Virus record (IMG/VR): IMGVR_UViG_3300027762_000011 | Location: 1 to 60,420 of that record | Source: a virus | Length of the DNA stretch: 60,420 nt | Direction: 5' to 3' (one strand) | Part shown: piece by piece, positions 3,070 to 58,840 of the stretch | Layout: each line of letters begins with the position of its first letter | Numbering within the stretch: the stretch's first letter is position 1 | The notes under the pieces: generated by a model | Database searches by the model: none | What the model was told of the DNA's origin: nothing | What the model saw: only the letters and a program-made list of their open reading frames with translations | Translations under genes and position numbers: made by a program

Positions 3070-3169
3070 TACCCTCTCGTTTACCTACGACGTATCCTAG
3101 CACAAGACCACACATGAACGCAACAAATAAGTAAAGTTCATGAGAAGCAAATTGTATGAGATCAGTCAC
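3062..3169 (-). CDS. tiny membrane protein, 35 aa, GTG start
   Basis: A 35-codon ORF begins with GTG at 3167-3169, overlapping the upstream stop (GTGACTGA), and ends in TGA at 3062-3064, overlapping the next ATG. Residues 13-28 form one hydrophobic membrane span, followed by a short charged tail. Overlap on both sides and the clear membrane helix support a real gene. The role is unknown. Confidence 0.6.
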   Translation of the reverse strand: MTDLIQFASHELYLFVAFMCGLVLGYVVGKREGND

Positions 3170-3482
3170 GCTGTCTCCAATCTTCTGGTTTATCTTCCGT
3201 GAAGAAATCTACAATTTCATCAACACTATTAAATCTAGAAATTCCTTTACCTTCGTGTCCTAAACCACCCAAGTCTAATCGATTCATGAAATCATCTAAA
3301 TCACCTTCAACCATATCCGGATTTTCTGCTTTTCTTCTTGCCTGACGGAGCATTGTGCCTGCACTACGATTTGCTTTTGCAAGTTTCTCTGCCCAAATCA
3401 TATCTTCCAAACTAACTTCTTCATGAAGAGCAATTTTTTCACAGATTGCTTCAAGACGTAGGCGATATTGTGTGGAGAGCAT
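3162..3482 (-). CDS. conserved cyanophage hypothetical protein, 106 aa
   Basis: The N-terminal half is strongly helical (Leu/Ala/Glu/Lys) and the C-terminal half is acidic with Gly-rich turns. A CTAAATA late-promoter motif at 3503-3509 lies 21 bases upstream of the start and overlaps the stop codon of the oxygenase gene before it. No enzymatic motif is visible. Confidence 0.6.
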   Translation of the reverse strand: MLSTQYRLRLEAICEKIALHEEVSLEDMIWAEKLAKANRSAGTMLRQARRKAENPDMVEGDLDDFMNRLDLGGLGHEGKGISRFNSVDEIVDFFTEDKPEDWRQRD

Positions 3483-3502: not shown

Positions 3503-3509
3503 TATTTAG
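3503..3509 (-). promoter_or_regulatory. late-promoter-like motif CTAAATA
   Basis: The minus strand reads CTAAATA, the late -10 type seen in T4-like cyanophages. It sits 21 bases before the ATG of the 106-aa gene, and its TAA is the stop codon of the upstream oxygenase. Confidence 0.5.
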
Positions 3510-4633
3510 TTGAACCAAGTGATAATAGAATATCTTGTTCCTTTGCTTACTGGCATAATTTCATGAGGATACAGATAGTTTGATGGAAAAGTAATTATAG
3601 ATCCTTTTTTTAATTTATAAATTAATTCTCTATCAAAAAATGCAAATTCTCCTCCTTCATAATCGTCATTTAAAATCAAAGAACAGGAGATTGTTCTTGG
3701 ATGTTCAGTAAATGAATCAGTATGTTGCGAATAAAATCCACCACTAGTATACTTTAAAAGATCATATCCACTATCTTGAGAAATAGTTATAGTATTAAAC
3801 TTATTTTTTAAATCAGTAATTATATTTGAAACTACATCAAAAATTTTTTTATCTATTTCTTTACGAACACTAGGATTTTTTAAAATTGTGTTTTCGGAGG
3901 ATATATTAATAATCTCACAATTTCTAATAGATTTATTAATAGTACCATAACCTATTTGGGAAGATTTCCACCCATCATCAGTAGAATAATGTCTTGTAAT
4001 TAAATTACAAAGTTCTTCAGGTACAATACTTTCATAAATCGTAATAAAAGATTCTAATTTTGAAGAAGGTTTAATTGCATAATCTGAAGAGGAAATGTTT
4101 TTCGTTTTATCAAAATAAGTATATGATTTTTCTCCATTACTTCTTACATAATGCAAAAATACCTGAGAATAAAAATTTCCATTAAATTCATCTCTCCAAT
4201 GAGGTGCGATACACCCCAAATATAAAAGTGCATCTCCTTTATTTAAATTAACGGGAATTTTTTCTCCAGATGGATTTTCCACATAAAATTCCCATTCCTT
4301 ATCACCATCTAAATGCAATGTTAAAGAAATTTCACATGCAGATCTATCAATATGTTTTTTTAAAACATCACCTTTTTTATATATTCTAGAGTAACAATAA
4401 GTTGGTAAAACAGTTTCACCAATACTCTCAGATACTATTGGTGTTTTTTCACACAGAAGTTCTAAAAAAGGAAGGTAATTATATTTTGATGGAGTATTTG
4501 GGACATTAGGATCATTAACAGTATAATTTTCTTGGCAGTATTTTTTAAATTGATCCGATAAATTTTTTGCTCTATCCGAATCAATAAAATTTCTTATAAC
4601 TAAAAAATTATTATCAAGAATATTTTTAATCAT
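3506..4633 (-). CDS. double-domain 2OG-Fe(II) oxygenase (prolyl-4-hydroxylase-like)
   Basis: Two dioxygenase domains lie in tandem. Domain 1 (about residues 5-165) has the iron-binding triad H94-x-D96 and H145 in a double-stranded beta-helix context. Domain 2 (about 195-375) has H304-x-D306, H357 and the 2-oxoglutarate-binding Arg367, followed by a short beta strand, the pattern of P4H-type enzymes. Domain 1 lacks an obvious GxR at the usual place, so it may be degenerate. Enzymes of this superfamily hydroxylate proteins or small molecules using 2-oxoglutarate and O2. The substrate here is unknown. The gene is very AT-rich and lies directly before two further oxygenases. Confidence 0.85.
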   Translation of the reverse strand: MIKNILDNNFLVIRNFIDSDRAKNLSDQFKKYCQENYTVNDPNVPNTPSKYNYLPFLELLCEKTPIVSESIGETVLPTYCYSRIYKKGDVLKKHIDRSACEISLTLHLDGDKEWEFYVENPSGEKIPVNLNKGDALLYLGCIAPHWRDEFNGNFYSQVFLHYVRSNGEKSYTYFDKTKNISSSDYAIKPSSKLESFITIYESIVPEELCNLITRHYSTDDGWKSSQIGYGTINKSIRNCEIINISSENTILKNPSVRKEIDKKIFDVVSNIITDLKNKFNTITISQDSGYDLLKYTSGGFYSQHTDSFTEHPRTISCSLILNDDYEGGEFAFFDRELIYKLKKGSIITFPSNYLYPHEIMPVSKGTRYSIITWFN

Positions 4634-4636
4634 GGG

Positions 4637-5239
4637 TTAAAATGAACAGTTAATGTTAAAAGATATAGTCACTCTATTTTTTAGAGATGGGCGAACAGAA
4701 TGGATTAAATTAGTTGGAAAAATTATTACACTACCCTCACTAATATCTTCAAGATAAAAAGTTTTTTCAAAAAACTTATTTCCAGAAGTAAAAAAAGTAG
4801 TGGTATTTTTTTCGTTAAGATCTAAAATGTATACTCCTGCAAAACCCTCATGAGCACCATGAGTGTGCATGTCATGATAACCACCAGGAGAATATACATT
4901 ATACCATATTTTTCCTATGTTTGATTTTTTCGGATATTGAACAATATTTAAATTTTTATTTTCCAGTAAATTATCAATTACATTCCAAATAATTAAGTTC
5001 AAATAATTGTATTCTTCTAATAAATTGAATAAAAAATTGTCGTTATTATCGTTTAAAAAATAATTTGTTTTACACATATAATTATTATAATATTCAAGAT
5101 CATCTCTATTTTTATATAATTGATTTAAAGTATTAGAGTGATCAATAATTTTTTGAAAAATATTTTTTTTTATTTCTTCGTGTTGTTCAATACTTTCCCA
5201 ATAAACAAATTGAGATGGGAAATTATATAAATTTTTCAT
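4637..5239 (-). CDS. 2OG-Fe(II) oxygenase, 2OG-FeII_Oxy_5-like
   Basis: A 200-aa protein. Its C-terminal half has the layout of the cyanophage oxygenase family: HxH at residues 125-127 after a Gly-Gly turn, a strand-rich core, distal His180, and Arg189 for 2-oxoglutarate. The first His motif reads HTHG rather than HxD, which is usual in this family. The N-terminal 100 residues are Asn-rich and helical. It is separated from the previous gene by 3 bases and directly abuts the next, so the three are co-transcribed. The substrate is unknown. Confidence 0.8.
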   Translation of the reverse strand: MKNLYNFPSQFVYWESIEQHEEIKKNIFQKIIDHSNTLNQLYKNRDDLEYYNNYMCKTNYFLNDNNDNFLFNLLEEYNYLNLIIWNVIDNLLENKNLNIVQYPKKSNIGKIWYNVYSPGGYHDMHTHGAHEGFAGVYILDLNEKNTTTFFTSGNKFFEKTFYLEDISEGSVIIFPTNLIHSVRPSLKNRVTISFNINCSF

Positions 5240-5889
5240 TAAATATTATCTCCATTATCTGTAAAGAAAAAAACTTGATTCATTCTATAGGTATCAGAAA
5301 AATAATCATCATTACATATATTCATACCATGAAAAAATTTATATCCATCAAATAAAACCATTCTATTGTATTTTGGTTTTATTGATTCAATTATTCTATA
5401 ATTATTTTTATTTCTCCAAGGTTGATAGTGTTCTGGTATGTCATCAGGAGGTTCTATATCAGGATTTAAATTTTCATATAGATTAGTACCAGATTCACAA
5501 TCATCTTTATTCAAATAAAGTATCGCATTATATCCATGATCTCTGTGAGGCCACCAATAATTGTCATGATAATTATTAAAGTTTACTTTTTTAAATCTAG
5601 TAAAATTTGTAGTTACAGTATCTACACTATAATAACTGGATTGATTACAAATTTTGCCCAAAAAATTAGATACTTTTACAACTTGGTTTGATAAAAATGA
5701 GTGCCTCCTATCATCAAAAAAAATTTGATTATGAGAAGGTTTTACATTAGGACGCCAAACCAAAGGATCTATAGATAAAAAAAGTTCTAATACTTTATCT
5801 GGGTTTTGATAAAAGTTATCAATTTGATAAAAATTAGACCCATCTATAACTTTAGTTTCTACATTACAATTTTCATTAATTTCAAACAT
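5239..5889 (-). CDS. 2OG-Fe(II) oxygenase-like protein, DUF6445 type
   Basis: A 216-aa protein with H115-x-D117 in a WPHRDH context, distal His187 in FHGM and Arg202 near the C-terminus. This matches the DUF6445-type proteins predicted to be 2OG-Fe(II) dioxygenases. It is a different subfamily from its two neighbours, so the cluster did not arise by simple tandem duplication. Its ATG overlaps the stop of the upstream membrane-protein gene by 8 bases. Function is inferred from the metal-site pattern only. Confidence 0.75.
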   Translation of the reverse strand: MFEINENCNVETKVIDGSNFYQIDNFYQNPDKVLELFLSIDPLVWRPNVKPSHNQIFFDDRRHSFLSNQVVKVSNFLGKICNQSSYYSVDTVTTNFTRFKKVNFNNYHDNYWWPHRDHGYNAILYLNKDDCESGTNLYENLNPDIEPPDDIPEHYQPWRNKNNYRIIESIKPKYNRMVLFDGYKFFHGMNICNDDYFSDTYRMNQVFFFTDNGDNI

Positions 5890-6127
5890 ACTTATCGTTT
5901 TCTTTAAATTCTTTCTCCAGTTCTTTTGCCAGTTTATATGCTCTTCTCCAAATAAAATACTTCACAATCGGATTTGCTGGATTGTGAAGTATCCACCACT
6001 TTGTTTTTTCATATTCTACTCTTGCCAATTGAGTGAGTATATAAAATGCCCTTGCTACAGATTGATCTGTGACAATCAAATAAGCAATACAAAAAAAGAT
6101 AACAAAGTATATGTAAATAGAACTCAT
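5882..6127 (-). CDS. single-span membrane protein, 81 aa
   Basis: Residues 3-19 form a hydrophobic membrane helix. A long basic/acidic amphipathic tail rich in Trp, Lys and Glu follows, probably lying at the membrane surface. It overlaps both neighbours. No known family is recognised. Confidence 0.6.
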   Translation of the reverse strand: MSSIYIYFVIFFCIAYLIVTDQSVARAFYILTQLARVEYEKTKWWILHNPANPIVKYFIWRRAYKLAKELEKEFKENDKYV

Positions 6128-7108: not shown

Positions 7109-8335
7109 TCAACGACGAATGGTGCTGAAGGCAACATCACCTTTTACGAAGATGGTGTCAACCACGTTCTGCACAGCATTTGCGGTGTTCGTGGATGCCT
7201 TGTCAAAGGTGGGGCAGATCACCAGACCATAGGATTTAGTATATGCCTCCAGATTGCCCGCCTGGAGCGCCCCAGAGCGGATCCCAGCAGTATCCTGGGG
7301 GTGTAGGCGCAGAGTACGCCCAACCGTTTGTCCGATGCCCACAACATCCATAGAGCGCATGAATACAACTGCCTCCAGGGCAGAGATGTTGATGCCTTCC
7401 GCAAGAATGCTGTGGTGCAGAACCACAAACTTCTTATCGGCATCCTTGCCCCACTGGTTGAGAGTGTCAAAGAACACCTCACGGTTCACGATCTTACCAT
7501 CAATAAAGGCACCGTGCTTAGAGGTAATGTGCATCACAGAGTAACCCTGTTCTGCCAGTTGATCTGCAAAATCAGTTTCAGAAAGCAAACCCACGATGTG
7601 CTTGGTTGCCTTGGCACAGATCAGGATCTTATTCACAGGATGATCTGCAATCGTTTGTAGAAGATACTCACAATCACGTTGAGCAATATCCTCACCCTTG
7701 ATGGAGAGGCGCATCTCCTTCATCATAACCTTGGGAGGAATGATGTAACCACCCTGCACAAGATCGGGAGCAGGAACCTTGGCGATGATCTGTCCATAAA
7801 CGTCAACATCGTTCATGCCAGGTTTGCCAACCACAGAAGAATACTTGGGAGTTGCAGTAAAGAAGTAGCAACGCTTTGCTTCGGAAGCAAAGTATTCTGT
7901 GGCAGGAAAGAAATTACGCTTGACTGAATTGTGTGCTTCGTCAAAGTAAATCGTGTCCACGGCAATACCTGCACGTTGCAGTTGCTGCAGAGAGTTGTAA
8001 GTAGTAAAGATCAGTTTGTGACCTTCCACTTGCTCACACCAGGCACGGATAACGTTAGGGCGAGTGCTGCTGAAGTGGTGAGTTTCACCCGTGTGAACGT
8101 GCATCACATGAGCATTGGTGATGAACTCAAGGTACTCCGAAGACAGTTGCTCTGCCAAGAGGATGCGGGGTGCCACCACTACGATAGTTTGAGGAGTCTC
8201 TTTGAGAAACTCCTGAATGGCATCAAAAATACCAACGTTGGTTTTACCACCGCCAGTAGGGAAAACACAGATGCCCTTGGCAACCTGCCGAAGAGCATCA
8301 AGGGCAATTTGTTGATGGGGGCGAAGTTGGAACAA
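7109..8335 (-). CDS. superfamily 2 DEAH-box helicase
   Basis: A 408-aa SF2 motor. Q-motif-like residues (LRPHQ) lie at 4-8, Walker A PTGGGKT at 26-32, DEAH at 132-135, motif III TATP at 160-163, and motif VI QTVGRTLR at 336-343 with the arginine fingers. It is the ResIII/UvsW type but shorter than T4 UvsW and lacks an extra DNA-binding domain, so I do not call it UvsW. Its GC content and codon choice look clearly higher than the flanking genes, suggesting separate acquisition. It has its own extended -10 promoter and follows a ParB-like gene and a split methyltransferase, hinting at a DNA-processing or defence/anti-defence job. Confidence 0.88.
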   Translation of the reverse strand: MFQLRPHQQIALDALRQVAKGICVFPTGGGKTNVGIFDAIQEFLKETPQTIVVVAPRILLAEQLSSEYLEFITNAHVMHVHTGETHHFSSTRPNVIRAWCEQVEGHKLIFTTYNSLQQLQRAGIAVDTIYFDEAHNSVKRNFFPATEYFASEAKRCYFFTATPKYSSVVGKPGMNDVDVYGQIIAKVPAPDLVQGGYIIPPKVMMKEMRLSIKGEDIAQRDCEYLLQTIADHPVNKILICAKATKHIVGLLSETDFADQLAEQGYSVMHITSKHGAFIDGKIVNREVFFDTLNQWGKDADKKFVVLHHSILAEGINISALEAVVFMRSMDVVGIGQTVGRTLRLHPQDTAGIRSGALQAGNLEAYTKSYGLVICPTFDKASTNTANAVQNVVDTIFVKGDVAFSTIRR

Positions 8336-10565: not shown

Positions 10566-10594
10566 ATTCTAGTGGGATTTAGGGATTATGTCAA
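10566..10594 (-). promoter_or_regulatory. sigma70-like promoter for the split methyltransferase
   Basis: TTGACA (10589-10594), 17 bases, TAGAAT (10566-10571) on the minus strand. The TGA within TTGACA is the stop codon of the upstream fibre gene (10591-10593). It gives the cassette transcription independent of the late tail genes. Confidence 0.75.
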
Positions 10595-12537
10595 GGAGTG
10601 AGAGTTAATGTAACGGAACCAACACCAGGTACATTAAGAATAAGATTTAATCCAGATACTGTTATTTGTACCGGAGATTGACCTATTACGCTAGTAAATC
10701 CACCAGTAGAGGTAACTATTCCAGATGTATTGAGTGATGTGGTACCAGAAATTTCTCCACTTGTGATATTAAAACCACTTATATTAGATAAAGTTGATCC
10801 ATCACCATCAAATCTAGTTGCGGTTATAATACCTGAGGTATTAATATTTTGAGATCCGGAAAGATGTCCAGAAGAAATATTCGAAGCATTTAAATTAGTT
10901 AATGTTGATCCGTTGCCAGAAAATCTAGTTGCGGTTATAATACCTGAGGTATTAATATTTTGAGATCCTTCAATAGATCCTGAAGAGATGTTAAATGGAT
11001 TTAAATTAGTTATTGTTGATCCATCACCAGCAAATCTAGTTGCGGTTATAACTCCAGTTATATTAATATTTCTTGTCCCAGAAATAGTTCCAGAAGAAAG
11101 ATTAGATACATTTAAATTAGTTATTGTTGATCCATCACCAGCAAATCTAGTTGCGGTAACAACACCCGCAGTATATACATCTCCTCTGGAACTTATTCCT
11201 ATGCCACCTCCCGTATAAATTGGTTCCCTACCAATTTGAAATATGTACGTTGGAAGGTTTGTATTAATCCCAACTCTACCATTAAATATTGAATTATTAG
11301 TTACAGTAAGTGTTGATGGTGAAATTCCGCCAGATAAGTAAATATTTCCACCAACATAGGAATCTCCAGTTACTGTTGATGTGCCAACGACATGAAATTT
11401 ATTTGATGGATTTGTTATTCCAAGACCCAAATTTCCAGTATAAGTCAAAGACATTAAATTATTTAATGATTGACCATATATCCAATTAAAAGACCCAGTA
11501 TTTATTCCAGTATTGCCAAAATGAAGATAATAATTCACATTTCCAGTAGAATTATTAATTAAATCAATAGAAGTTTGTGTGCTTTGTGGATAAGAATTGT
11601 CAGTATTGCCGTACTGTAAAACACCATTATTTCCAGATAATGTAACACTTCTTCCAAAAATTAATCGTGACGGATTAGATCCATCACTTGTCAATTGAAT
11701 TCTTGTATCGCCATTTTTTCTTAAATGTAAGTCGGAAGATGGATTTGTTGTTCCAATACCAATTCTTTGTGCTGAGTATAAAAGAGAAGTAACTGTGGAA
11801 ATTGATACGTTTGCAAATGAACTATCAATAGAATTAATAGTTATATTTGAAGTTTGAGTAATTGAATTGGCAGTATTTGCTATTCCTGTTAAATTTCCAA
11901 CAAATGTTGGTGCAGTTATTGTTCCTGATAAATTAATACTTGAGGGTAATCTGGAATTATTTAAAGTCCCCGAAGATATGTTAGATGCGTTTATTAACGT
12001 TAAATCAGAACCAAAACCTACGAAACTTCTTGCGGTGATAATTCCAGTTGGAGTTACAATATTACCTCTTCTATCAAATCCAACTCCATTAGTAAATGCA
12101 AAAACGTTATTATTTCCACCTACTTGAAATGCAAATCTAGGATCATTTGTTGCAACACCAACATTACCTTGAGAATAGATGCTAGTAAATCCTAATCCAA
12201 CATCAGTGTCCAACCATTGTGAAGTTGGTAAATTAAGAAGTTTCCCACCATCACCGTAATAAGTTACAACACCTGAAGATGCGGTTATAATGCCAGATGT
12301 AATTGATGTTATTCCTACATTCAATCTTTGAAATGATCCTGATTGATTTACCAAACTAGATCCAGAAAGACTGCCAACAGTAAGATTTCCAGAGATAATG
12401 GCATTACCTCTAACATCCAAAAATTCGGTTGGAACAGATGTGCCTATTCCAACCAACCCATTAGGATTTACTATAAAGTTATCATCATCTACCTGAACAC
12501 CATTTTTAAAATTAAATGACCTTCTATAACTTGCCAT
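10591..12537 (-). CDS. tail fibre-like protein with internal repeats
   Basis: A 648-aa virion-type protein. The N-terminal 60 residues look like the virion-attachment segment of cyanophage fibres (LVGIGTSVPTEFLDV-type). Repeated G-[IV]-GT-x-x-P units follow, and four copies of an approximately 40-residue unit containing ITATRF-x-GDGST lie around residues 450-590. Such beta-strand repeats build trimeric fibre shafts. No receptor-binding or chaperone domain is visible at the C-terminus. It is the last gene of the fibre block before the accessory cassette. Confidence 0.75.
   Translation of the reverse strand: MASYRRSFNFKNGVQVDDDNFIVNPNGLVGIGTSVPTEFLDVRGNAIISGNLTVGSLSGSSLVNQSGSFQRLNVGITSITSGIITASSGVVTYYGDGGKLLNLPTSQWLDTDVGLGFTSIYSQGNVGVATNDPRFAFQVGGNNNVFAFTNGVGFDRRGNIVTPTGIITARSFVGFGSDLTLINASNISSGTLNNSRLPSSINLSGTITAPTFVGNLTGIANTANSITQTSNITINSIDSSFANVSISTVTSLLYSAQRIGIGTTNPSSDLHLRKNGDTRIQLTSDGSNPSRLIFGRSVTLSGNNGVLQYGNTDNSYPQSTQTSIDLINNSTGNVNYYLHFGNTGINTGSFNWIYGQSLNNLMSLTYTGNLGLGITNPSNKFHVVGTSTVTGDSYVGGNIYLSGGISPSTLTVTNNSIFNGRVGINTNLPTYIFQIGREPIYTGGGIGISSRGDVYTAGVVTATRFAGDGSTITNLNVSNLSSGTISGTRNINITGVITATRFAGDGSTITNLNPFNISSGSIEGSQNINTSGIITATRFSGNGSTLTNLNASNISSGHLSGSQNINTSGIITATRFDGDGSTLSNISGFNITSGEISGTTSLNTSGIVTSTGGFTSVIGQSPVQITVSGLNLILNVPGVGSVTLTLTP
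10770..11165 (-). repeat. in-gene tandem repeats of about 120 bp
   Basis: Four imperfect copies of an approximately 40-codon unit, each containing the same ggttataat/acctgaggt-type and gatccatcacc-type words. They encode the ITATRF repeats of the 648-aa fibre. Near-identical DNA suggests length change by recombination. Confidence 0.6.
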
Positions 12538-26068: not shown

Positions 26069-29000
26069 TTACTTACCTAATGCTATAATTAAAGGAGTTA
26101 CTGTATTTAACAGACTTTGACTAAATGCTCTTCCGGTGATTGTTCCGGTTAATTGATTGATTACAACATCATCTCCAATTTGGAAGTTTCCTGCTTGGTT
26201 TGTACTGGTATAAACAACCTGACCACCATTACGTTTATCAACTTCATTTGCCTGAATTGAAACTCCACCTAAAGCTGGTTTTGCTGTAAAGATATTTGTT
26301 CCAGCTCCAACCCATTCCAATGAAATTGATGTTGCAATTTGTAAACTAATTCTGGAGAAATAAACTGTCGTTCCAGTACCAATATTATTATTTAGATTTT
26401 GTGTTAGGATAATTGTAGAAATTCCATTTTCTGGCAACGATGCACTTTCAATGCCATAGTATATTGGGTACATGACTGGTGCTGCAGATGCACCAGAACC
26501 TCCACCTCCAGTAATTTGTATGTTAGGAGGGTCTTCATATTGAGTTCCACTACTAATAACATCAATAGAAACTATTTTACCATTTTCAATATTTGGAGAT
26601 CCTTCTGCCCTAATTCCATTTGGTCCACTTGGGAAGTCAAATGTAATTACGGGTGGATTACTTTGAGAATATCCACTTCCACCATCTAATATTTTGATAG
26701 TATCAACAAAATAATACAATCTATCAAAATAAATTGCCTGTCCATCATAAGGTCTATAATCACCAACACCAGAAACAGTAATAATTGATGTTTCTATTTC
26801 GGCATCAGTTACAACTTCTCCAGTATACCTATAGATTGACTTGGACGTATTATCCCCAACACCATCAGAAACTAGACCATAATTACCAAATGATGCGTTA
26901 GAGTTTGTAATATCACACTGACCACCCGATTTTGTAAATATTCCAATATCATCACAGATTGTGAAAATAGAAACTAATTGTGAATATGCACCATTTGTAA
27001 TAGAAACTCCAATACCACCTTGATTATATTGCGTATAAGAGTCAACACTCATTGTACCAGTTACACCAATATCATCCTGATCTCCTGGTTCTGCATTAAA
27101 TCCATCAACCTTCATTCCAATACTATCCCCAATGAAGTTTGTAGCATTCCTAATGTAGGGCCCCTGAGTAATTGGTCCCACACCTCTTGAATATGGGGGA
27201 AGAACTACACCACCAGTAATATAATAATGTGGTATGGTCGATTTTCCAACATTTACAACAAAAGTATCTCCACTGTCAGAAACTGATAAAACCTCAAAAT
27301 CATATCCTCTATTTCCTGATGGGAATAATGTTGTTGTTCCTGCACCACTAAGACATGCAAATTCTAAGTTCCTTAGAGTTACAAAGTCTCCTTTTCTTAC
27401 TGAAGAACCTGGGGAAACAATCGTTGTTATTCCAGTTGAATTATCATATTTTGCTTCGGTAACATTAATTGTCCTATCAATAACATATCCACCAGAAACA
27501 TATGTGTGTGGTATGGTAGAAACTCCAGTATAAACATCAAACGAATCATCTGGATTTATTTTAGAAACATAAAATTCATATCCATAATAACCTGATGGGA
27601 ATTTTTGTTGAGTTGTAGGACCTCCAGATGAACAAGAGAAAACTAAATCTCTAATTTCTATTCTGTCACCAACTTTAACTTGCAATCCGGGAGCTATTAA
27701 TGTTGTTTTTCCAGAAGTCTCTTCATAAACTGCACTAGTAATACCAGTAAGAGTTTCAAATCCTTTACCACGATTTCCTGGATATGTTGTATTAAATCCA
27801 ACATATGAGAATGAAGTTGAACCAAATCCAACAACTGATGTCACAACACCTACACATGATTTCATAGCAGATGTAACATCAACACAAGAATTGATTACAT
27901 TATTATATCCAGTTTCTGGATCTATCTGAATAGAAAGATCTTTAACCTGAGTGACACTATTTTGGAAATTTGTATACTTTTGAATAGTTCCTCCAGAAAC
28001 ATATGTGTGAGGAAGAACTGTTTTTCCAGCAACGAATTCAAATGTATTTGGTCCAACTACAGATTTGACTGGGAATATGTAATTAAATGTTCCATCTGGA
28101 TAAGTTGTAGTTGTATAGTTTGCAGTTAGCGATCCTCCAGTTACATAATCATGATCTAAAGTTGAAGAACCAACATTTAACACAACTTTATTTGAAGTAT
28201 AAAGTGCTGGATAAGAATTTAAGTTTCCATCAGAAACCACAGATGTAAGTATTGCAATTAAATTATCAATATTTGATTGGACATCCGCACAGGAACTCGG
28301 ATCAGTATTAAAACCTGTAACTGGATCTGCAATAATTGATAAATCTTTAACATTTAATTGATTTGTAATTGCCTTCTTGGCATAATCACGAACTGCATTA
28401 AATGCAGTTATACTCTCTGCCTCTTCACCAACTAAACCATTGGAGATTGGATCTCCATTTTTATTAAAATATGCTCTAATTGCTTCACGAATGTACTTAT
28501 TAGTTCCATATTTTATATCTTTTATCAAAGCATCAACAATATAACCAATATCTCTACGACACTTATTCTCACCAGTTACAAAGATTCCAGAATTAATTCT
28601 GATAGTATTAAGAGAAGAAAGTGATCCTGCAGAAACAACAGACGTGATAATTGATGTTAAAGTATCTAATGTATTTTGAACATTTGCGCAGGAGGATGGT
28701 GAAGTGTTAATTCCAGTTGCAGGATCTGCAGTAATTGTTAAGTCCTTGACAGTAAGTTGATTTGTAATTGCCTGCTTCATTAAGTTTCTTGCCTGATTAA
28801 AAGCATAAACAGATTCTGTTTCTTCACCAACCAATCCATTAGAAATTGGTGCTCCATTATTAAAGTATTGTTTTACAAATTCAATAGAATATGAATTTCC
28901 TCCAGTAAAGATATCTATAGAAACTGCATCAATAAAGTATCCAATATCTCTCTTACACTTTGTTTGAGTTGTAGAAATTCCTGGATATGCAACAACCGTA

Positions 29001-32000
29001 GCATTCCAAGAACTATCAACAATTTCAGTTCTATTTTGCTGGATCAATCTATAAGAATCTTTAAATCTTGAGAATCTTGTAGTTTGAACATCATTCGGGA
29101 AGTAAAAATCCGAATGTCCAATCGCAATTGCTGCAAGAGATTTGTCAATAATTTCAATTCTATTCTTTTGAATTAAATTAGCAGCATCTATATAACGATT
29201 ATCTGCGGTTGCAATTACCTTAAATTCATATCCAAGATTTCCTGATGGATAATATGCTGTAGATGGACCACCACCACTATTACATTCCCAAACAAGATTT
29301 TCTATTTTAACTTTTTTACCTGGCTCAATATATAAATGTGCTCCAGTAGTTGTTCCCAACCCAACGGCGGTAATGGTTGTAATTCCACTTATACGATCAT
29401 AAGATGCAGTTGAAATTCCAAACACGGGTGTATAAAGTTTGGATATATTACCACCATATTGGTAAGAATGATCTAAAGTAGATTTTCCCACATTAACAAC
29501 AAATGTTTTAGAATCAAGAACATCCTGAACTGTAAATTCATATCCAAGATTCCCCGAAGGATATGATGCCGTTGAAGGACCACCTCCACTATCACATTCA
29601 AATATAAGATTTTCTATTTTTACTCTATCTCCGGATATAATCTTTAACGATGTTGAAGTTTCTATTGTTGAAATTCCAGTCAATCTGTCATAAGAGGCAG
29701 TTACGACACCAACGGGGAAACCAGCAGATCCTGAATCGCATGAATAAGTTAATCCCTGAACTTTAACAGGATCATTTCTAGTTAAACCATGATTAACTGC
29801 AGTAACTGTAGTAATTCCTGTTATACCATCATAAATCGCATTTGTTACTACAGTTCCTAGACCAACTGGATATCCACCCCATGAACAATTATTAATAACT
29901 GCTCTTGCAACATTAAATGAATAATCTAGAGTTGATATAGTTTGATTAACTTCTCCTGGATTTTTTAGAATTCCAGTTTTTAAATTCCAATTATCATCAT
30001 AGTATGCCTTACCTGCATCAACACATCTAGAATTTCCACCTCTTGTAATATCATGAATAATACATTTCCAAATATCCTTAATATCATCCGCACAGTCATT
30101 ACTTTCTAATGTCACTCCAAATCTAATTTGTGGGGCATTTGATGTTGTTCCAGCACCAATCATATTAGTAACAATTCCAACTAATTGTCGAACTGTAGTT
30201 CCAACACCAACACACCCACCTTCAACAGCAATAACTGATAGGTTTTTAATTTGCGTTACACTATTTCCAACTCCTTGATAAGAAATGGGAGGAGTTAAAT
30301 TGTTAATCACATGAGTTGCAATTCCTGCAGCATAATCTAATGCAGCAACAGTTGCTTGAGAAACACCAACACCAGTAATATGGATTAATCCACCAGAAGT
30401 ATTAAAATATGAATAACCCGCACCAATTGATTTGCGATTACTGTTTGCTTTTAGGTCATAAGATACTGCCTGCATAATGCTGACAACGTCTTCTTTGCAA
30501 TTAATATAACTGCTTATTCCAAGTGTGAAATTATATCCGGATGGCGATGTTAGAAAACCAACTGCCTCGGCGGCAATATAATCTAAATTAGAATCAATTA
30601 ATTTTGCAGCATCCTGCTCTCTGTGATTTCCCGCAAACCCACTAAAACCACTTGTAAGGAATCCAACAGATTCTTTTGCAATATAATCTAGATTAAAACG
30701 AATCATTCTAGCAGCATCAAAGAATCTATCCGTTGTTACTCCTAGTAAAGGTTGAAGAGCAATTATTGCAGCACCATTTGTAGAATTCTGTCCTATAAAA
30801 CTTACATCAGTTACATGGCATCCATTATTAACATAAAATAAGTCTCTGTCAGGGAATTTTGGAGTAACTACACAATTGCGAAGTTCCGTACCCTCAACAG
30901 ATACTGTTTTTGCCAAGATAATTGGATTTTCTTCAACATAAACTCCAGGAAATACTTTTATAGTGTCTCCAGTAAGTGCTACTGATGCGGCAGATTTAAT
31001 AGTTCTCTTGGGATAGTTTTCTGATAAACCTGTATTATTATCATCACCATTTTGAGATACGTAAATCGTTTTTCCAATAGGTCTATATGCGTCAATTTTT
31101 ACTACACCTTTTCCTGGATCTTGAGTTGCAGTTAAATCAATACCTATACCAGGAACAAGTTGTGTAACAATGCCTACAAGATTTACACCTCCACCATAAA
31201 ATTCAGTTGCTCTTGCTGTTCCTCTTACAGTTAAATTATCAGTTATTACATTTGTATTGATTCCGATAGATCCTGTTCCTGGAATATAAGAAAGTTTTTC
31301 TGAAGATGCAAAAACAGTTGATAGAGGAGTTATCGTTGGATCTTCAATAAAACTAACATATCTTGTAAGATTTGTTGTATTGTCATCAACTACATCAAAT
31401 ATTGCAGATCCTTGTAATCCTTGTAATCCTTGTAATCCCTGCAATCCTTGGGCACCTTGATTTCCTTGTGTACCCTGAGTGCCCTGATCACCTTGAGTAC
31501 CCTGAACGCCCTGATCACCTTGAGTTCCTTGAGTTCCTTGATTTCCCTGCGATCCTTGGGTTCCCTGTTCACCCTGAGTACCCTGATCACCTTGTGTACC
31601 TTGAGTTCCTTGCCTCCCTTGAGTTCCTTGAGTTCCTTGAGAACCTTGAGTACCTTGTCTACCTTGAGTACCCTGAGTTCCTTGAGTTCCTTGCCTCCCC
31701 TGAGTACCTTGAGTACCTTGAGTACCCTGAGTGCCTTGTCTTCCTTGGGTGCCTTGGGTGCCTTGAGTACTTTGATTTCCTTGTGTTCCCTGTTTTCCTT
31801 GGGTTCCTTGAGATCCCTGAGTACCTTGAGATCCCTGAGTACCTTGATCACCTTGAAGACCCTGAACACCTTGAGTACCCTGATCACCTTGAGTACCCTG
31901 CGCTCCTTGATCACCTTGAGTACCTTGAGTGCCCTGATCACCTTGAGTACCTTGAGTGCCCTGATCACCTTGAGTACCCTGAACGCCCTGATCACCTTGA

Positions 32001-54870: not shown

Positions 54871-57800
54871 TTACTCCAAATTAAGATTCATTTTCTTTAG
54901 GTTTTCTTCAAGACGGGGTTTATGTTCCTCAAGAATTTCATAGTTATTTTTAATATCTAGTAGTAAAGTTTTTGCTTCTTCAACTTTACCCCACCACCAA
55001 GCACCAACAGCTTTCTCAAATAGTAAACCATATTTACCAGGATATTCAACATCAGTTCTAAGTGGTTTTGAATTAAAATCACAATATCTAAGTCCTCTAT
55101 CGGCATGGATATAACAATCTTGCCACCATTGGCGTTTTTCTGCAAATCTACTCAACAGGAAATAAGCTTCTGGTCTAGATGGAAGTAAACATAAAGCCTG
55201 CTCAAGTAAAGATTTTGAACTACCATCACGAGTTCCTTGCTTTGTATAACAATATGATGCTCTTATTAATGCTTCATATGCAAGATTATCATCTATTGCT
55301 CTTTCTGCACATCTTAAGAAATAAGAAACCGCTGGAGCAGTGTGACTTTCTTTTTCATACCAAACTCCAAGATTAAAATTATGATCTGGATTTTCAGTAT
55401 CTAGAGAATACTTATTAAGAAGATCTGTTAATTCATCATTCTTAGTTTTTTTTATATCTAAGATATTTGGAATTAAATACTGCTCAACATTCGGAAGACT
55501 GAAAATTATTGGCGGAAGTTCTGTAATTGGATAAGGTTTCAATACAATATTTACATTTCCAGATGGAGAAGTTAATTCATCCTTAAAATTATACTTTTCC
55601 ATATATTCCCACAGTTCTTCTTGAGAATAATCTTTACCTAAAAATGTTTTCAAATTTTCATCATAATGACAAAAAGATTTAAATTTATTAATTCTATTTT
55701 GATTGTTCCCCATCCAACTAAAATGCCATCCCAAATCTTGACATACTTCCCCATTATGAGTTACATATCTAATTTCATACCCCCTTCTCATGTACTCTGC
55801 TCTAATTTCAGTCGGAGTATTAATCATCAGGTGCTTTTTAAAGCACATAAACATAGATTTACTCCAAGAAGAAGGAGATCCATCTAAATTATACGCTCTA
55901 TAATCTGCCCTTCCTTCAAGGTGTACAAGAGGAACTTTAAAAATATAATCTTTATTATTTTTTGCAGATCCATGTATAAATGGTATATTATTAGGACTAA
56001 CAATTTCATCACAATCACTAATTATAAAAAATGTATCATCATCAAATTCAGAAATAATATTACACAGATAATCTCTTTGAATCCTTTCTCTACTTGCTAT
56101 TTTTTGATTTGGATTAAAATGAAGATCATAGTCTGAAGGATTTCCTGGATTGGAAAGATCCGCTTCAATAACTCTAATCTTATTTTTTGGAAGTCCAAGT
56201 TCATCAATAACTTTATTACAACTATACTCTTTTGGAATACCACTATGCGTATAATTTGCATCAATAATTACAAACAAATCAACATGATCTCTTAAAAGTT
56301 TTACTCTCAATTCGAGTAATTCTTTTTCGTTAAAATACGGAAAACAATCAACAATCTTTGGTTTATTAGGCATAATAGTTTCATCCATGTTCACGGGTTT
56401 AATTTCAGTAAAAAACTTGGGAGTTTCTTTGTCTTTATTTTTCCACCATTCAATAACTTTTTCATGCGATATGTAATGGTTTTTCTTTTGCCCATCATTT
56501 ACATCAGCATCTTTACCAACAAAGGTAGATTGAAACTTAACTTCTTCAGCAAATAATGGAATAGTGTAGCATTTACCAAGACTTGCAAAAAGAATATTTT
56601 CAATCAGAGGCATTGTTGTTTGATTGGGAATTTCAAGACAATACCCATCATCACGAATATAAGTATCGATTAATTTTTTAGCATATTCTCTCATGACAAC
56701 ATAAGCAGATGCCCCCCAATCATCCCAATACCTTTCACGAAGTTCAAATGTATCGTACTCTCCACGAATAGTAAACAACTGAAGACAATCGACATCTTTA
56801 GGTATATTAGATATAAATTCTTTCCAAGTAAAGTTCCAATGCTCCACCGTTTCCAAACTTAAATCATCTTCACAGAAAAATCCATAATCTTCTTCGGTTG
56901 TTTCATACCATTCTTTTATTGCTTTTAAGTGAGATACTACACATCCCTTTGTTCCTTCGTTTAAACTATCAACATATTTTCCGTATACATGATCATTAGA
57001 CTCAGAAAATCTTTTTGAAATAACTGCCGTAGGAACAATTCCATAAAAAGAAAATTCAGACTCTAAATTATCTCTTCGGTCTAAACTTTCTTCTAAAGAA
57101 ACATAATATACGGATGGAAACTCACTCAATTTATCACTCATATTTTTTTCCGCAAAATAATTTTGGTCATCTATTTTTTCAATATTCCATTTTGTTTTTG
57201 GTGGAACATAGTAATTAATTATCTCAGCACACATATTTTTATTATTTTTAATATGTGTTTGAGAAATCCAATACTCAGTTTGCCACTTTTCTTCACCATC
57301 AGGAGTTAAATCTAATCTTTCTTTTATTCCTGATTCAACATACCCTTTAAAATTTTCGAATCTTTTTTTATCTGGATGTGGTATATGAATTACATTATAA
57401 TCATAATTTAACTTCTTATGCTCTAGTCCATATAGTTCTAGTCTAGTACAAATTTCATCATCCTCAAAAGCATAATATTTTGTTAAATTTTCATTGTACC
57501 CACCTATTGAAAGTAAATTCTCTTTGGATACTAGGAGTAACCCAGTAAGATACTTAAAGAATTGGCAATAAGAATTAAAATAAGTGCTCCATTCATCAAG
57601 GGTTAAACATGTCAAATCAACCATGGAGTTCCCAGTTTCTTTATCAATAAATTCTGGACTCTTAAAATTATGTTTTCCAGAAACAAAACTATTTTCATCA
57701 ACTGGATATTTGTTAAAGAAGTTTTCATACGGATTGAGTATGTAATCCGTATCAACTTTTAAAATATAATCTCCCTGTGCCAAACTAATCGCCAAGTTTA

Positions 57801-58008
57801 GTGGTTGAGGTTGATTAAAATATTTTTGGTCGGAGACAGTAATTACTTTTATTCTTGGATCTAATTTAGTTAAATGGTTGATTGGTTCATCAGAACTCCA
57901 ATCAACTATAATAATTTCTTTTATACAATCAAAAAGAAGCCAAGAACTAAGAGAAACTTTTAATGCATTTAAACGATTTTTACAAGCACAAACTAAAGAT
58001 ATGTTCAT
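54871..58008 (-). CDS. triple-domain glycosyltransferase with TPR tail
   Basis: 1045 aa in four parts. Residues 1-275: GT2/GT27-like (ISLVCACKNR, DTDYIL acidic motif near 86-91). About 294-480: GT25-type (YVSLEESLDRR, GCVVSHLKAIKEW, FFCEDDL). About 545-860: GT17-like (DCFPYFNE-ELLELR, SDCDEI near 663-668, YRRGYEIRY-like region, HFSWMG). 865-1045: tetratricopeptide-like helical repeats. One chain with three transferase types suggests stepwise building of a short glycan while the TPRs hold a partner. Adjacent genes add fucose and methyl groups. Sugar identities cannot be read from sequence. Confidence 0.8.
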   Translation of the reverse strand: MNISLVCACKNRLNALKVSLSSWLLFDCIKEIIIVDWSSDEPINHLTKLDPRIKVITVSDQKYFNQPQPLNLAISLAQGDYILKVDTDYILNPYENFFNKYPVDENSFVSGKHNFKSPEFIDKETGNSMVDLTCLTLDEWSTYFNSYCQFFKYLTGLLLVSKENLLSIGGYNENLTKYYAFEDDEICTRLELYGLEHKKLNYDYNVIHIPHPDKKRFENFKGYVESGIKERLDLTPDGEEKWQTEYWISQTHIKNNKNMCAEIINYYVPPKTKWNIEKIDDQNYFAEKNMSDKLSEFPSVYYVSLEESLDRRDNLESEFSFYGIVPTAVISKRFSESNDHVYGKYVDSLNEGTKGCVVSHLKAIKEWYETTEEDYGFFCEDDLSLETVEHWNFTWKEFISNIPKDVDCLQLFTIRGEYDTFELRERYWDDWGASAYVVMREYAKKLIDTYIRDDGYCLEIPNQTTMPLIENILFASLGKCYTIPLFAEEVKFQSTFVGKDADVNDGQKKNHYISHEKVIEWWKNKDKETPKFFTEIKPVNMDETIMPNKPKIVDCFPYFNEKELLELRVKLLRDHVDLFVIIDANYTHSGIPKEYSCNKVIDELGLPKNKIRVIEADLSNPGNPSDYDLHFNPNQKIASRERIQRDYLCNIISEFDDDTFFIISDCDEIVSPNNIPFIHGSAKNNKDYIFKVPLVHLEGRADYRAYNLDGSPSSWSKSMFMCFKKHLMINTPTEIRAEYMRRGYEIRYVTHNGEVCQDLGWHFSWMGNNQNRINKFKSFCHYDENLKTFLGKDYSQEELWEYMEKYNFKDELTSPSGNVNIVLKPYPITELPPIIFSLPNVEQYLIPNILDIKKTKNDELTDLLNKYSLDTENPDHNFNLGVWYEKESHTAPAVSYFLRCAERAIDDNLAYEALIRASYCYTKQGTRDGSSKSLLEQALCLLPSRPEAYFLLSRFAEKRQWWQDCYIHADRGLRYCDFNSKPLRTDVEYPGKYGLLFEKAVGAWWWGKVEEAKTLLLDIKNNYEILEEHKPRLEENLKKMNLNLE

Positions 58009-58039: not shown

Positions 58040-58840
58040 TTATATAGTTATCCAATCTGGGCAGTATAAATCTTTAGTATCCCAATTTTCTAAGTCTCCA
58101 GAAAACCATTTTTTTGGTGCTACGATTTTTTTACTGTCTGACAACCACGCACCCCACCAACTATAAGAACTGTTAGCAATAATATGATAATTGCACATAC
58201 TCATCAAACATAAATCAATTAAAGTATTATTAGATTTAGAAATTTTAAACCTATCATTCTTAAAGAAAAATTGTTTCTCACACCATTCAGGATCATCAGA
58301 AAAAACTAATACTGGAATGTCTTCAGAAAAAATTTCTAGAGCAGATTGATAATAATTTAAATCAAGTAAATGAAAGTTTGAATCAGTTACATAATCAGTT
58401 CTTCGTATATGTAAAGAAATTATTTCAGAATTACTAAACATTCCTTTAATATAAGTTTCACACATTTTTTTTGTAAAATTTCCAAAAGAAAAATCATTTT
58501 TTATATCGTCTTTGATATGCTTAAAATATTTTTCAGTTTGAAAATATCCAAATAAATCAATATCATTCGGACAATTATAAAACAAATCTTCCTCAAAAGC
58601 AAAAGAAGATTCGTTTCTTGTTTTATAATCCGTCATCCCAACTTTATTGTTTATAATATTAGGAAAATTATATAAGTTTACATCAGATGCCTGAACTCTT
58701 TCATCATTAGATCCAAATACTCCAGAAAGAGGAATACAAAATTCATGATTATTTTGAATTGCAATTCCCTTTAGTGCAGCATATTGGAACATTTGATTTC
58801 CCAATCTACCCCTATTTCCAAGTTTGTTAAATGATATCAT
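58040..58840 (-). CDS. GT11-type alpha-1,2-fucosyltransferase
   Basis: 266 aa with the three GT11 motifs: GRLGNQMFQYA at residues 11-21, HIRRTDYV at 144-151 (GDP-fucose binding), and NSSYSWWGAWL at 223-233. It transfers fucose from GDP-fucose to a galactose-like sugar. It overlaps the GH130-like gene upstream by 4 bases, so the two are expressed together with the glycosyltransferases. Confidence 0.88.
   Translation of the reverse strand: MISFNKLGNRGRLGNQMFQYAALKGIAIQNNHEFCIPLSGVFGSNDERVQASDVNLYNFPNIINNKVGMTDYKTRNESSFAFEEDLFYNCPNDIDLFGYFQTEKYFKHIKDDIKNDFSFGNFTKKMCETYIKGMFSNSEIISLHIRRTDYVTDSNFHLLDLNYYQSALEIFSEDIPVLVFSDDPEWCEKQFFFKNDRFKISKSNNTLIDLCLMSMCNYHIIANSSYSWWGAWLSDSKKIVAPKKWFSGDLENWDTKDLYCPDWITI

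Follow-up and report, generated by a model that had tools for sequence, protein, structure and literature searches.

What do three consecutive oxygenase genes do for a virus that carries them at the junction of its helicase and tail-fibre genes? The question is raised by the window, the whole 60,420-nucleotide stretch of IMG/VR record IMGVR_UViG_3300027762_000011, a 60.4-kb virus record whose genes match marine T4-like cyanophages (Kyanoviridae). An earlier note on this DNA had described three 2-oxoglutarate (2OG)-Fe(II) oxygenases of different subfamilies in a row, and our analysis bears this out, with matches to PF13640, PF13759 and PF20043 in the proteins that we call P1, P2 and P3. The cassette that they form occupies an exchangeable slot flanked by two conserved genes, and relatives of the virus suggest that oxygenases of this sort may chemically decorate the virus's own host-binding fibres. 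The cassette and its borders are arranged as follows.

3162..3482, minus strand: conserved gene of 106 amino acids (phrog_507), the downstream border of the slot
3506..4633, minus strand: P1, predicted tandem oxygenase of 375 amino acids, with a phrog_2954-type N-domain and a prolyl-hydroxylase-like C-domain (PF13640, phrog_2954, phrog_3531, structural model)
4637..5239, minus strand: P2, predicted 2OG-FeII_Oxy_5 oxygenase of 200 amino acids, with an HxH...H iron site (PF13759, phrog_81, 2rg4)
5239..5889, minus strand: P3, predicted DUF6445-like oxygenase of 216 amino acids, with HxD...H...R (PF20043, phrog_1644, invariant residues)
5882..6127, minus strand: conserved gene of 81 amino acids, the upstream border of the slot, its stop overlapping the P3 start
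7109..8335, minus strand: UvsW-like helicase, the anchor of the junction (phrog_16, 1e-55)

To place the cassette among its relatives, we fetched 80 IMG/VR loci using the helicase as anchor, 27 of which carry both slot borders in order. The slot is empty (19-133 nucleotides) in 7 of these relatives, holds a gene of at least 150 amino acids in 13 and contains small open reading frames only in the remaining 7. When identical fillings are merged, the 13 large ones reduce to nine distinct contents, eight of which (11 loci) contain oxygenases of various subfamilies, the filling of L098 being so called by phrog_274 with a PF13640 score under the cut-off, that of L095 from its match to P2, and the Pfam typing having left out L095 and the duplicates L089, L094, L097 and L135. 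The ninth content, found in two loci, is homing-endonuclease-like, so that overall the slot holds oxygenases in 11 relatives, nothing in 7 and other genes in 9. In L087 the oxygenase shares the slot with a DXD glycosyltransferase (PF04488) and with one more gene, which has no Pfam match. The P1-P2-P3 trio of the window recurs in none of the 27 slots; the nearest relatives of P1 and P2 (67 and 66 percent identity) stand together in L005, just past the 106-amino-acid gene.

The cassette is also set apart by its composition. The earlier note had called it more AT-rich than its surroundings, and its GC content, 25.4 percent, is indeed below that of every other 2.4-kb stretch in the window (next lowest, 28.5 percent; window, 34.9 percent). 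Codon use agrees, with GC at third codon positions of 12.5-15.9 percent in the cassette genes against 24-27 percent in both flanking genes, and the large slot fillings of relatives are likewise AT-rich (24-34 percent GC). Transcription on the minus strand would run from the helicase through small genes to P3, P2, P1 and the 106-amino-acid gene. P3 and P2 meet in a shared TAATG, a gap of three bases separates P2 from P1, and the stop of the 81-amino-acid gene overlaps the start of P3; because these genes overlap or nearly abut, the 81-amino-acid gene, P3, P2 and P1 look like one operon. No instance of TATAAATA, which we take to be the late promoter motif, was found upstream of the cassette. The motif is under-represented in the window as a whole (2 found against 7.6 expected, with no fewer than 2 in each of 100 shuffles). 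Another IMG/VR record, of 5.9 kb (L085), matches the window at 100 percent protein identity from the helicase into the tail genes.

The three proteins hold four domains of predicted 2OG-Fe(II) oxygenase type. Pfam matches the C-terminal half of P1 to PF13640 (2.7e-17), P2 to PF13759 (2OG-FeII_Oxy_5, 1.1e-8) and P3 to PF20043 (DUF6445, 9.5e-6; 26.1 bits against a curated cut-off of 24, with the best stretch confined to residues 158-199), and P3 also matches PF13640 at 0.0016, under the cut-off of that model. In PHROG, P1 matches phrog_2954 (9e-60) and phrog_3531 (3e-68), P2 phrog_81 and P3 phrog_1644 (1e-41). The N-terminal half of P1 has no Pfam oxygenase match; it is counted as the fourth domain because it combines a near-invariant HxD...H with the phrog_2954 match and a model that aligns to 2OG enzymes.

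Alignment of the window sequences with 22 P1, 15 P2 and 12 P3 homologues revealed iron ligands that are invariant or nearly so in all three proteins. H94, D96 and H145 of the P1 N-domain are kept in 22, 22 and 23 of 23 sequences, with R147 invariant in the same alignment, while H304, D306, H357 and R367 of the C-domain are kept in 23 of 23. In P3, H115, D117, H187 and R202 are invariant (13/13). The iron site of P2 reads HxH...H in place of HxD...H, and its H125, H127 and H180 are likewise invariant (16/16), as is R189 in a separate alignment (10/10). As basic residues following the distal His, R367, R202 and R189 probably bind the 2OG carboxylate. Neither loss of the metal residues among homologues nor a non-oxygenase identity for two of the proteins, the outcomes that would speak against the earlier note, was encountered.

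AlphaFold models place P1 and P2 in the double-stranded beta-helix fold (Z scores of 17-21 to 2OG enzymes), the oxygenase assignment of P3 coming from Pfam only; P3 has no PDB profile relative at E values up to 1. The P1 model has a predicted local distance difference test (pLDDT) score of 88 and a predicted template-modelling (pTM) score of 0.51, which leaves its domain arrangement uncertain; the corresponding values for P2 are 84 and 0.85. The P1 C-domain aligns, in ties, with a Trichoplax HIF hydroxylase (Z 21.1), the Pseudomonas prolyl 4-hydroxylase (P4H) solved with EF-Tu (4iw3, 20.6) and PHD2 (20.4), and the N-domain aligns best with SnoN (5erl) and 6n1f (17.1 each). Profile searches of the PDB with P1 return at the top the P4H 3itq/5hv0 (3e-11), which we take to be the Bacillus anthracis enzyme, and LH3 at 1.7e-4. 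P2 matches 2rg4 (4e-11), and its model aligns over the HxH region with 2rg4 and 3bvc (Z 17.1). The P1 C-domain alone corresponds in sequence and fold to a P4H catalytic domain. The earlier description of P1 as tandem and P4H-like thus fits: both halves are oxygenase-type and the C-terminal one is nearest to prolyl hydroxylases. Because the two halves occur as separate, adjoining genes in L016, L023, L024 and L025, P1 seems to join in one chain two enzymes that would act together.

Several proteins with oxygenase Pfam matches bear the PHROG labels 'ferrochelatase' (phrog_2954, phrog_3531), 'DNA endonuclease V' (phrog_274) or 'minor coat protein' (phrog_1644), and these labels recur in phage annotations. 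For P1, Pfam matches at E values up to 1 include oxygenase families and no ferrochelatase family, an absent match not being proof.

To determine whether the position of the cassette is shared more widely, we examined 13 isolates picked for holding a relative of P1, P2 or P3, all of which carry oxygenases. The 12 isolates with a helicase match (S-CAM4 has none and was excluded) were subjected to a rotation test on merged PF13640, PF13759 and phrog_274 matches, joining those less than 450 bases apart and dropping two S-T4 terminal duplicates. Within 5 kb of the helicase lie 31 of the 148 oxygenase genes, against 7.1 by random rotation (p 2e-4), and within 10 kb there are 39 against 14.2 (p 2e-4). 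The DNA polymerase, by comparison, has 9 against 7.1 within 5 kb (p 0.33). Of the two sites tested, the junction of fibre and helicase genes shows the stronger enrichment without being the sole one. S-SCSM2R, S-B43 and ACG-2014f have no oxygenase within 10 kb of the helicase.

In some relatives, oxygenases keep company with fibre or glycosyltransferase genes. In S-MbCM7 and S-RIM32 an oxygenase immediately precedes an 11-12 kb fibre gene, and the order ahead of the helicase is fibre, oxygenase, tail assembly chaperone, oxygenase; upstream in L009 there is a tail-fibre-like gene, and L184 has the series collagen-repeat gene, oxygenase, P3 homologue, collagen-repeat gene. In Gln-repeat records, judged by eye, oxygenases are not near collagen genes, and these records are not used as support. 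With the window excluded, a glycosyltransferase (GT) gene lies at most 2.6 kb downstream of a full-length P1 homologue in 10 of 23 loci, and in seven (L006, L008, L014, L015, L017, L018 and S-SCSM2R) it overlaps the P1 stop; the adjacent gene in L013 encodes a GT1/GT2 protein. The GT genes of L006 match phrog_2835 (glucosyltransferase) and one gene of the S-SCSM2R cluster is annotated as glycosyltransferase family 25, on which grounds we label the L006 genes GT25-like; Pfam gave a single weak GT25 match (E 0.008) for the three of them, and the L006 glycosyltransferase has no PDB relative at E values up to 0.1. As a control, none of the 80 helicase loci has a GT25-like match and two have a glycosyltransferase in the slot, one being the query source, a comparison that is not independent because the glycosyltransferase models were built mostly from P1-adjacent genes. 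S-SCSM1 (L177, NC_070962 102203-104620) carries consecutively, as annotated, a 'ferrochelatase', a GDP-fucose protein O-fucosyltransferase and a 2OG oxygenase.

Fibre modification at the junction is made concrete by S-CAM9, where a fusion enzyme matches the fibre residue, lysine. The S-CAM9 protein gp218 (NC_031922 34413-36254; L193:12414-14255), annotated as hypothetical, is a 613-amino-acid fusion; its gene comes after two oxygenase genes and a tail fibre whose repeats are of the GEKGQKGEIGQKG type, and ahead of the helicase. Residues 4-185 of gp218 match procollagen galactosyltransferase 1 (1e-19), residues 216-417 the PLOD3/LH3 glycosyltransferase domain (5e-33; Pfam GT_PLOD, PF25342, 7.5e-47) as well as R699, presumably a mimivirus protein, and residues 440-603 the procollagen lysyl hydroxylase 6ax6 (1e-8), which we take to be L230, presumably a mimivirus enzyme. 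Relatives of the fusion occur in S-PRM1, S-8S53/55/56, Roseobacter phage CRP-6 and further IMG/VR records; in S-8S55 the order is fibre, small gene, oxygenase, oxygenase and fusion, then chaperone, oxygenase, oxygenase and helicase. Among 15 IMG/VR fusion loci (L200-L214, L200 being the S-CAM9 genome itself), 11 extend 3 kb or more upstream, and these amount to seven distinct loci once near-duplicates are joined. A Gly-X-Y run in which Lys takes 18-55 percent of the Y positions lies 2.0-5.8 kb upstream in every one of the 11; the other four have just 1.1-1.4 kb upstream. CRP-6 and S-8S55 carry these KGQKGE repeats too. Across 24 records with Gly-X-Y runs, the runs are Lys-type in 7 of 7 records with the fusion and in 1 of the 17 others (Fisher 2e-5, the fusion records having been selected as such beforehand), and GT_PLOD in 7 of 7 and 0 of 17; the sole Lys-type record without GT_PLOD, G028, is a 30-kb fragment.

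The window has its own tail, fibre and glycosyltransferase genes, all on the strand of the cassette.

10591..12537, minus strand: tail protein (phrog_3269), the nearest recognised tail gene, co-varying with P1/P2
12574..18504, minus strand: large collar-type tail protein (by reading the translation), co-varying with P1/P2
20638..24495, minus strand: collagen-like Gly-X-Gln fibre protein of 1285 amino acids
26069..34129, minus strand: collagen-like Gly-X-Gln fibre protein of 2686 amino acids
53542..54867, minus strand: methyltransferase and GT2 protein, a possible partner
54871..58008, minus strand: GT2, GT25 and GT17 protein, a possible partner
58040..58840, minus strand: GT11 protein, a possible partner

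We compared the window genes with those of eight related records. In six of these the helicase is 90-96 percent identical, and most tail, fibre and baseplate genes are at 22-67 percent or unmatched, the exceptions being the small genes 18538 (76-85 percent) and 25713 (62-71 percent), gene 41880 in G034 and, in G005 and G030, the distal part of the fibre 26069-34129 (78-82 percent). These six records have no P1 or P2 orthologue and only partial matches at 29-34 percent. The L005 record has the lowest identities of those compared for the helicase (62 percent) and the 106-amino-acid gene (68 percent); its tail, fibre and baseplate genes are mostly at 61-92 percent (one fibre tip is at 32 percent and gene 19487 is unmatched), with P2 at 66 and P1 at 67 percent. 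A second P1 (52 percent) is found in the L134 record, with the helicase at 75 percent. This pattern, with one strong and one weak case, suggests that P1 and P2 go with the tail module, despite the helicase region in between, and not with the local backbone.

Modification of tail or fibre proteins is favoured as the single best reading by the exchangeable slot, by the glycosyltransferases next to P1 homologues, by co-segregation and by the collagen-type fusion, and we put the chance that the cassette hydroxylates the phage's own tail or fibre proteins, perhaps with glycosylation to follow, a little below even. P1, P2 and P3 would then constitute one exchangeable operon of expressed, active 2OG-Fe(II) hydroxylases, and their substrates would most likely be late proteins of the phage, above all those of tail, baseplate or fibre, hydroxylated at particular residues ahead of virion assembly or in the course of it. 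A sugar might then be added to this hydroxyl by phage glycosyltransferases, of which the record encodes the GT2/GT25/GT17 and GT11 proteins listed above. A broader proposal, which we advance more tentatively, is that the tail-fibre/helicase junction of marine phages is home to an interchangeable 'fibre decoration' locus, where 2OG hydroxylase cassettes, with or without GT25-type glycosyltransferases, would be matched to the residue alphabet of the fibre: Gly-X-Lys fibres would be paired with a full collagen-type lysine hydroxylase-galactosyl-glucosyltransferase, and the tandem, HxH and DUF6445 set of the window would hydroxylate other tail or fibre residues.

Several observations weigh against modification of tail or fibre proteins. 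The co-segregation rests on the L005 record, possibly just the nearest relative, and a weaker second; the six contrasting records are not six independent cases, because G005 is nearly identical to G030 and breaks off within the slot, and G032 is without most tail genes, and P3 is found in none of the eight. Oxygenases are also enriched within 10 kb of the DNA polymerase (28 against 14.2 expected, p 0.008) and lie in between genes of replication (clamp, clamp loader, dam) in P-SSM2 (L174) and S-SCSM1. No glycosyltransferase adjoins 13 of the 23 P1 homologues (five of those contigs end within 2.6 kb), only S-SCSM2R among four isolates with a tandem P1 homologue has one, and phrog_2835 genes are common regardless (15 of 23 records). 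Within the window, 4.7 kb separate the cassette from the closest gene recognised as a tail gene, and the glycosyltransferases are about 48 kb away from it. Nine of the 13 isolates, all with oxygenases, have no PF01391 among the matches listed; as these nine have 2-13 PF13640 matches, collagen hydroxylation is rejected as the general function of the arrays.

The window's own repeats likewise differ from those of S-CAM9. Both giant fibre proteins contain hundreds of Gly-X-Gln triplets and are nearly free of Pro and Lys. Among 483 collagen-like triplets, Y is Gln in 467 and never Pro or Lys, and X, mainly Thr, Asp or Leu, is Pro in 3 and Lys in 2; with Pro and Lys at Y in 0 of 483, prolyl or lysyl hydroxylation of these repeats is rejected. 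GT_PLOD has no match in the window, a genome fragment, and a Gln-repeat relative, L090, has an empty slot. Because the repeats are almost without Lys and Pro, GT_PLOD is missing and the L090 slot is empty, the S-CAM9 chemistry is not transferable to the window; if a fibre or tail protein is the substrate, the modified residue would be another one or lie outside the repeats.

The fold matches of P1 and P2 are compatible with other substrates as well. The oxygenases might modify glycans, nucleotide sugars or small molecules, such as a polysaccharide of the phage or host surface or a secondary metabolite, which would account for some of the glycosyltransferase neighbours. P1 homologues run into phrog_2835 genes (in L006 also into a DegT-type aminotransferase gene). 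Downstream of the homologue in S-SCSM2R come genes for glycosyltransferase, aminohydroxybenzoate-synthase-like, radical SAM and amidinotransferase proteins. SnoN, to which the P1 N-domain model aligns, is an epimerase of the nogalamycin pathway, and one report proposes capsule or metabolite decoration for another cyanophage 2OG-enzyme cluster (PMC7824862). The P1 C-domain, however, is nearest to prolyl hydroxylases, P1 and P2 track tail proteins (one strong case) and no glycosyltransferase adjoins the cassette in the window, and we consider this explanation rather unlikely. A host protein modified during infection, such as EF-Tu or some other factor of translation or transcription, is suggested by the tie of the P1 C-domain with the P4H solved with EF-Tu; yet a common fold shows no substrate, and exchange at the fibre junction together with variation among close relatives suits a phage-side target better, so that we consider a host target improbable.

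The earlier note had held a protein or nucleotide substrate to be as possible as an effect on host sensing. Of these two alternatives a protein substrate is favoured, by the prolyl-hydroxylase-like C-terminal half of P1 and the linkage to tail genes; a nucleotide substrate draws on nothing but other oxygenases in the replication module of relatives. Action on nucleic acids, in repair or base modification, would agree with those oxygenases standing beside dam and clamp genes and with an older AlkB-like repair proposal, as given in the available parts of two papers (PMC2984593, PMC3037559), but AlkB and TET/JBP are not nearest to P1 or P2 in Pfam, PDB profiles or the fold rows shown (ALKBH7 ranks 49 for P2), and we regard it as quite improbable. 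The effect of the cassette might, finally, be 2OG consumption that shifts host nitrogen sensing, an idea published for cyanophages generally (PMC3037559); by itself this gives no account of unlike oxygenases swapping at one site and draws no support from the linkage to tail genes and glycosyltransferases, and it strikes us as very improbable.

If modification of tail or fibre proteins is correct, host recognition by such phages would depend on an oxygen- and iron-dependent modification of the fibre. Linking some cyanophage oxygenases to tail fibres and glycosyltransferases makes an open question of function testable on virions, with collagen-like hydroxylysine glycosides predicted for those of S-CAM9, S-8S55 and Roseobacter phage CRP-6. 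The abundance of 2OG oxygenases in cyanophages is already known, as are the nitrogen/2OG and DNA-repair ideas, from the available parts of earlier work (PMC9602691, PMC3037559, PMC2984593). Other sources describe an abundant viral prolyl 4-hydroxylase gene as cryptic in its use and mention collagen in viral tail fibres (PMC9301287), or state that bacteria and viruses are without prolyl hydroxylases (PMC3368898). A subset of the open-access literature yielded no paper on a phage lysyl hydroxylase-glycosyltransferase.

Among known systems, the PF13759-type proteins 2rg4 and 3bvc resemble P2 in profile (4e-11) and fold (Z 17.1), and both are titled uncharacterized, with no function to transfer. 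The prolyl 4-hydroxylases 3itq/5hv0 and the Chlorella virus vCPH (5c5t) are like the P1 C-domain in profile (3e-11) and fold (Z 18.7 for vCPH, up to 21.1 for others), but the collagen-like repeats of the window are almost proline-free and in P1 this domain is preceded by another oxygenase domain of a different kind. All three domain kinds of PLOD3/LH3, procollagen galactosyltransferase 1 and L230 recur in the S-CAM9 fusion downstream of a Gly-X-Lys fibre, whereas the window record has no GT_PLOD match, no Lys at Y and its oxygenases apart from its glycosyltransferases. A further counterpart is the cyanophage oxygenase array of S-SCSM1, with 24 2OG-Fe(II) oxygenase genes, whose functions in viruses had, by the available portion of the account, not been specifically investigated (PMC9602691). 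That portion deals with number and phylogeny and has no slot, glycosyltransferase neighbours or fibre substrate, while the array itself shares with the window the phage family, the helicase/tail-fibre junction and the oxygenase subfamilies, with a P1 homologue, named ferrochelatase, and other oxygenases at that junction.

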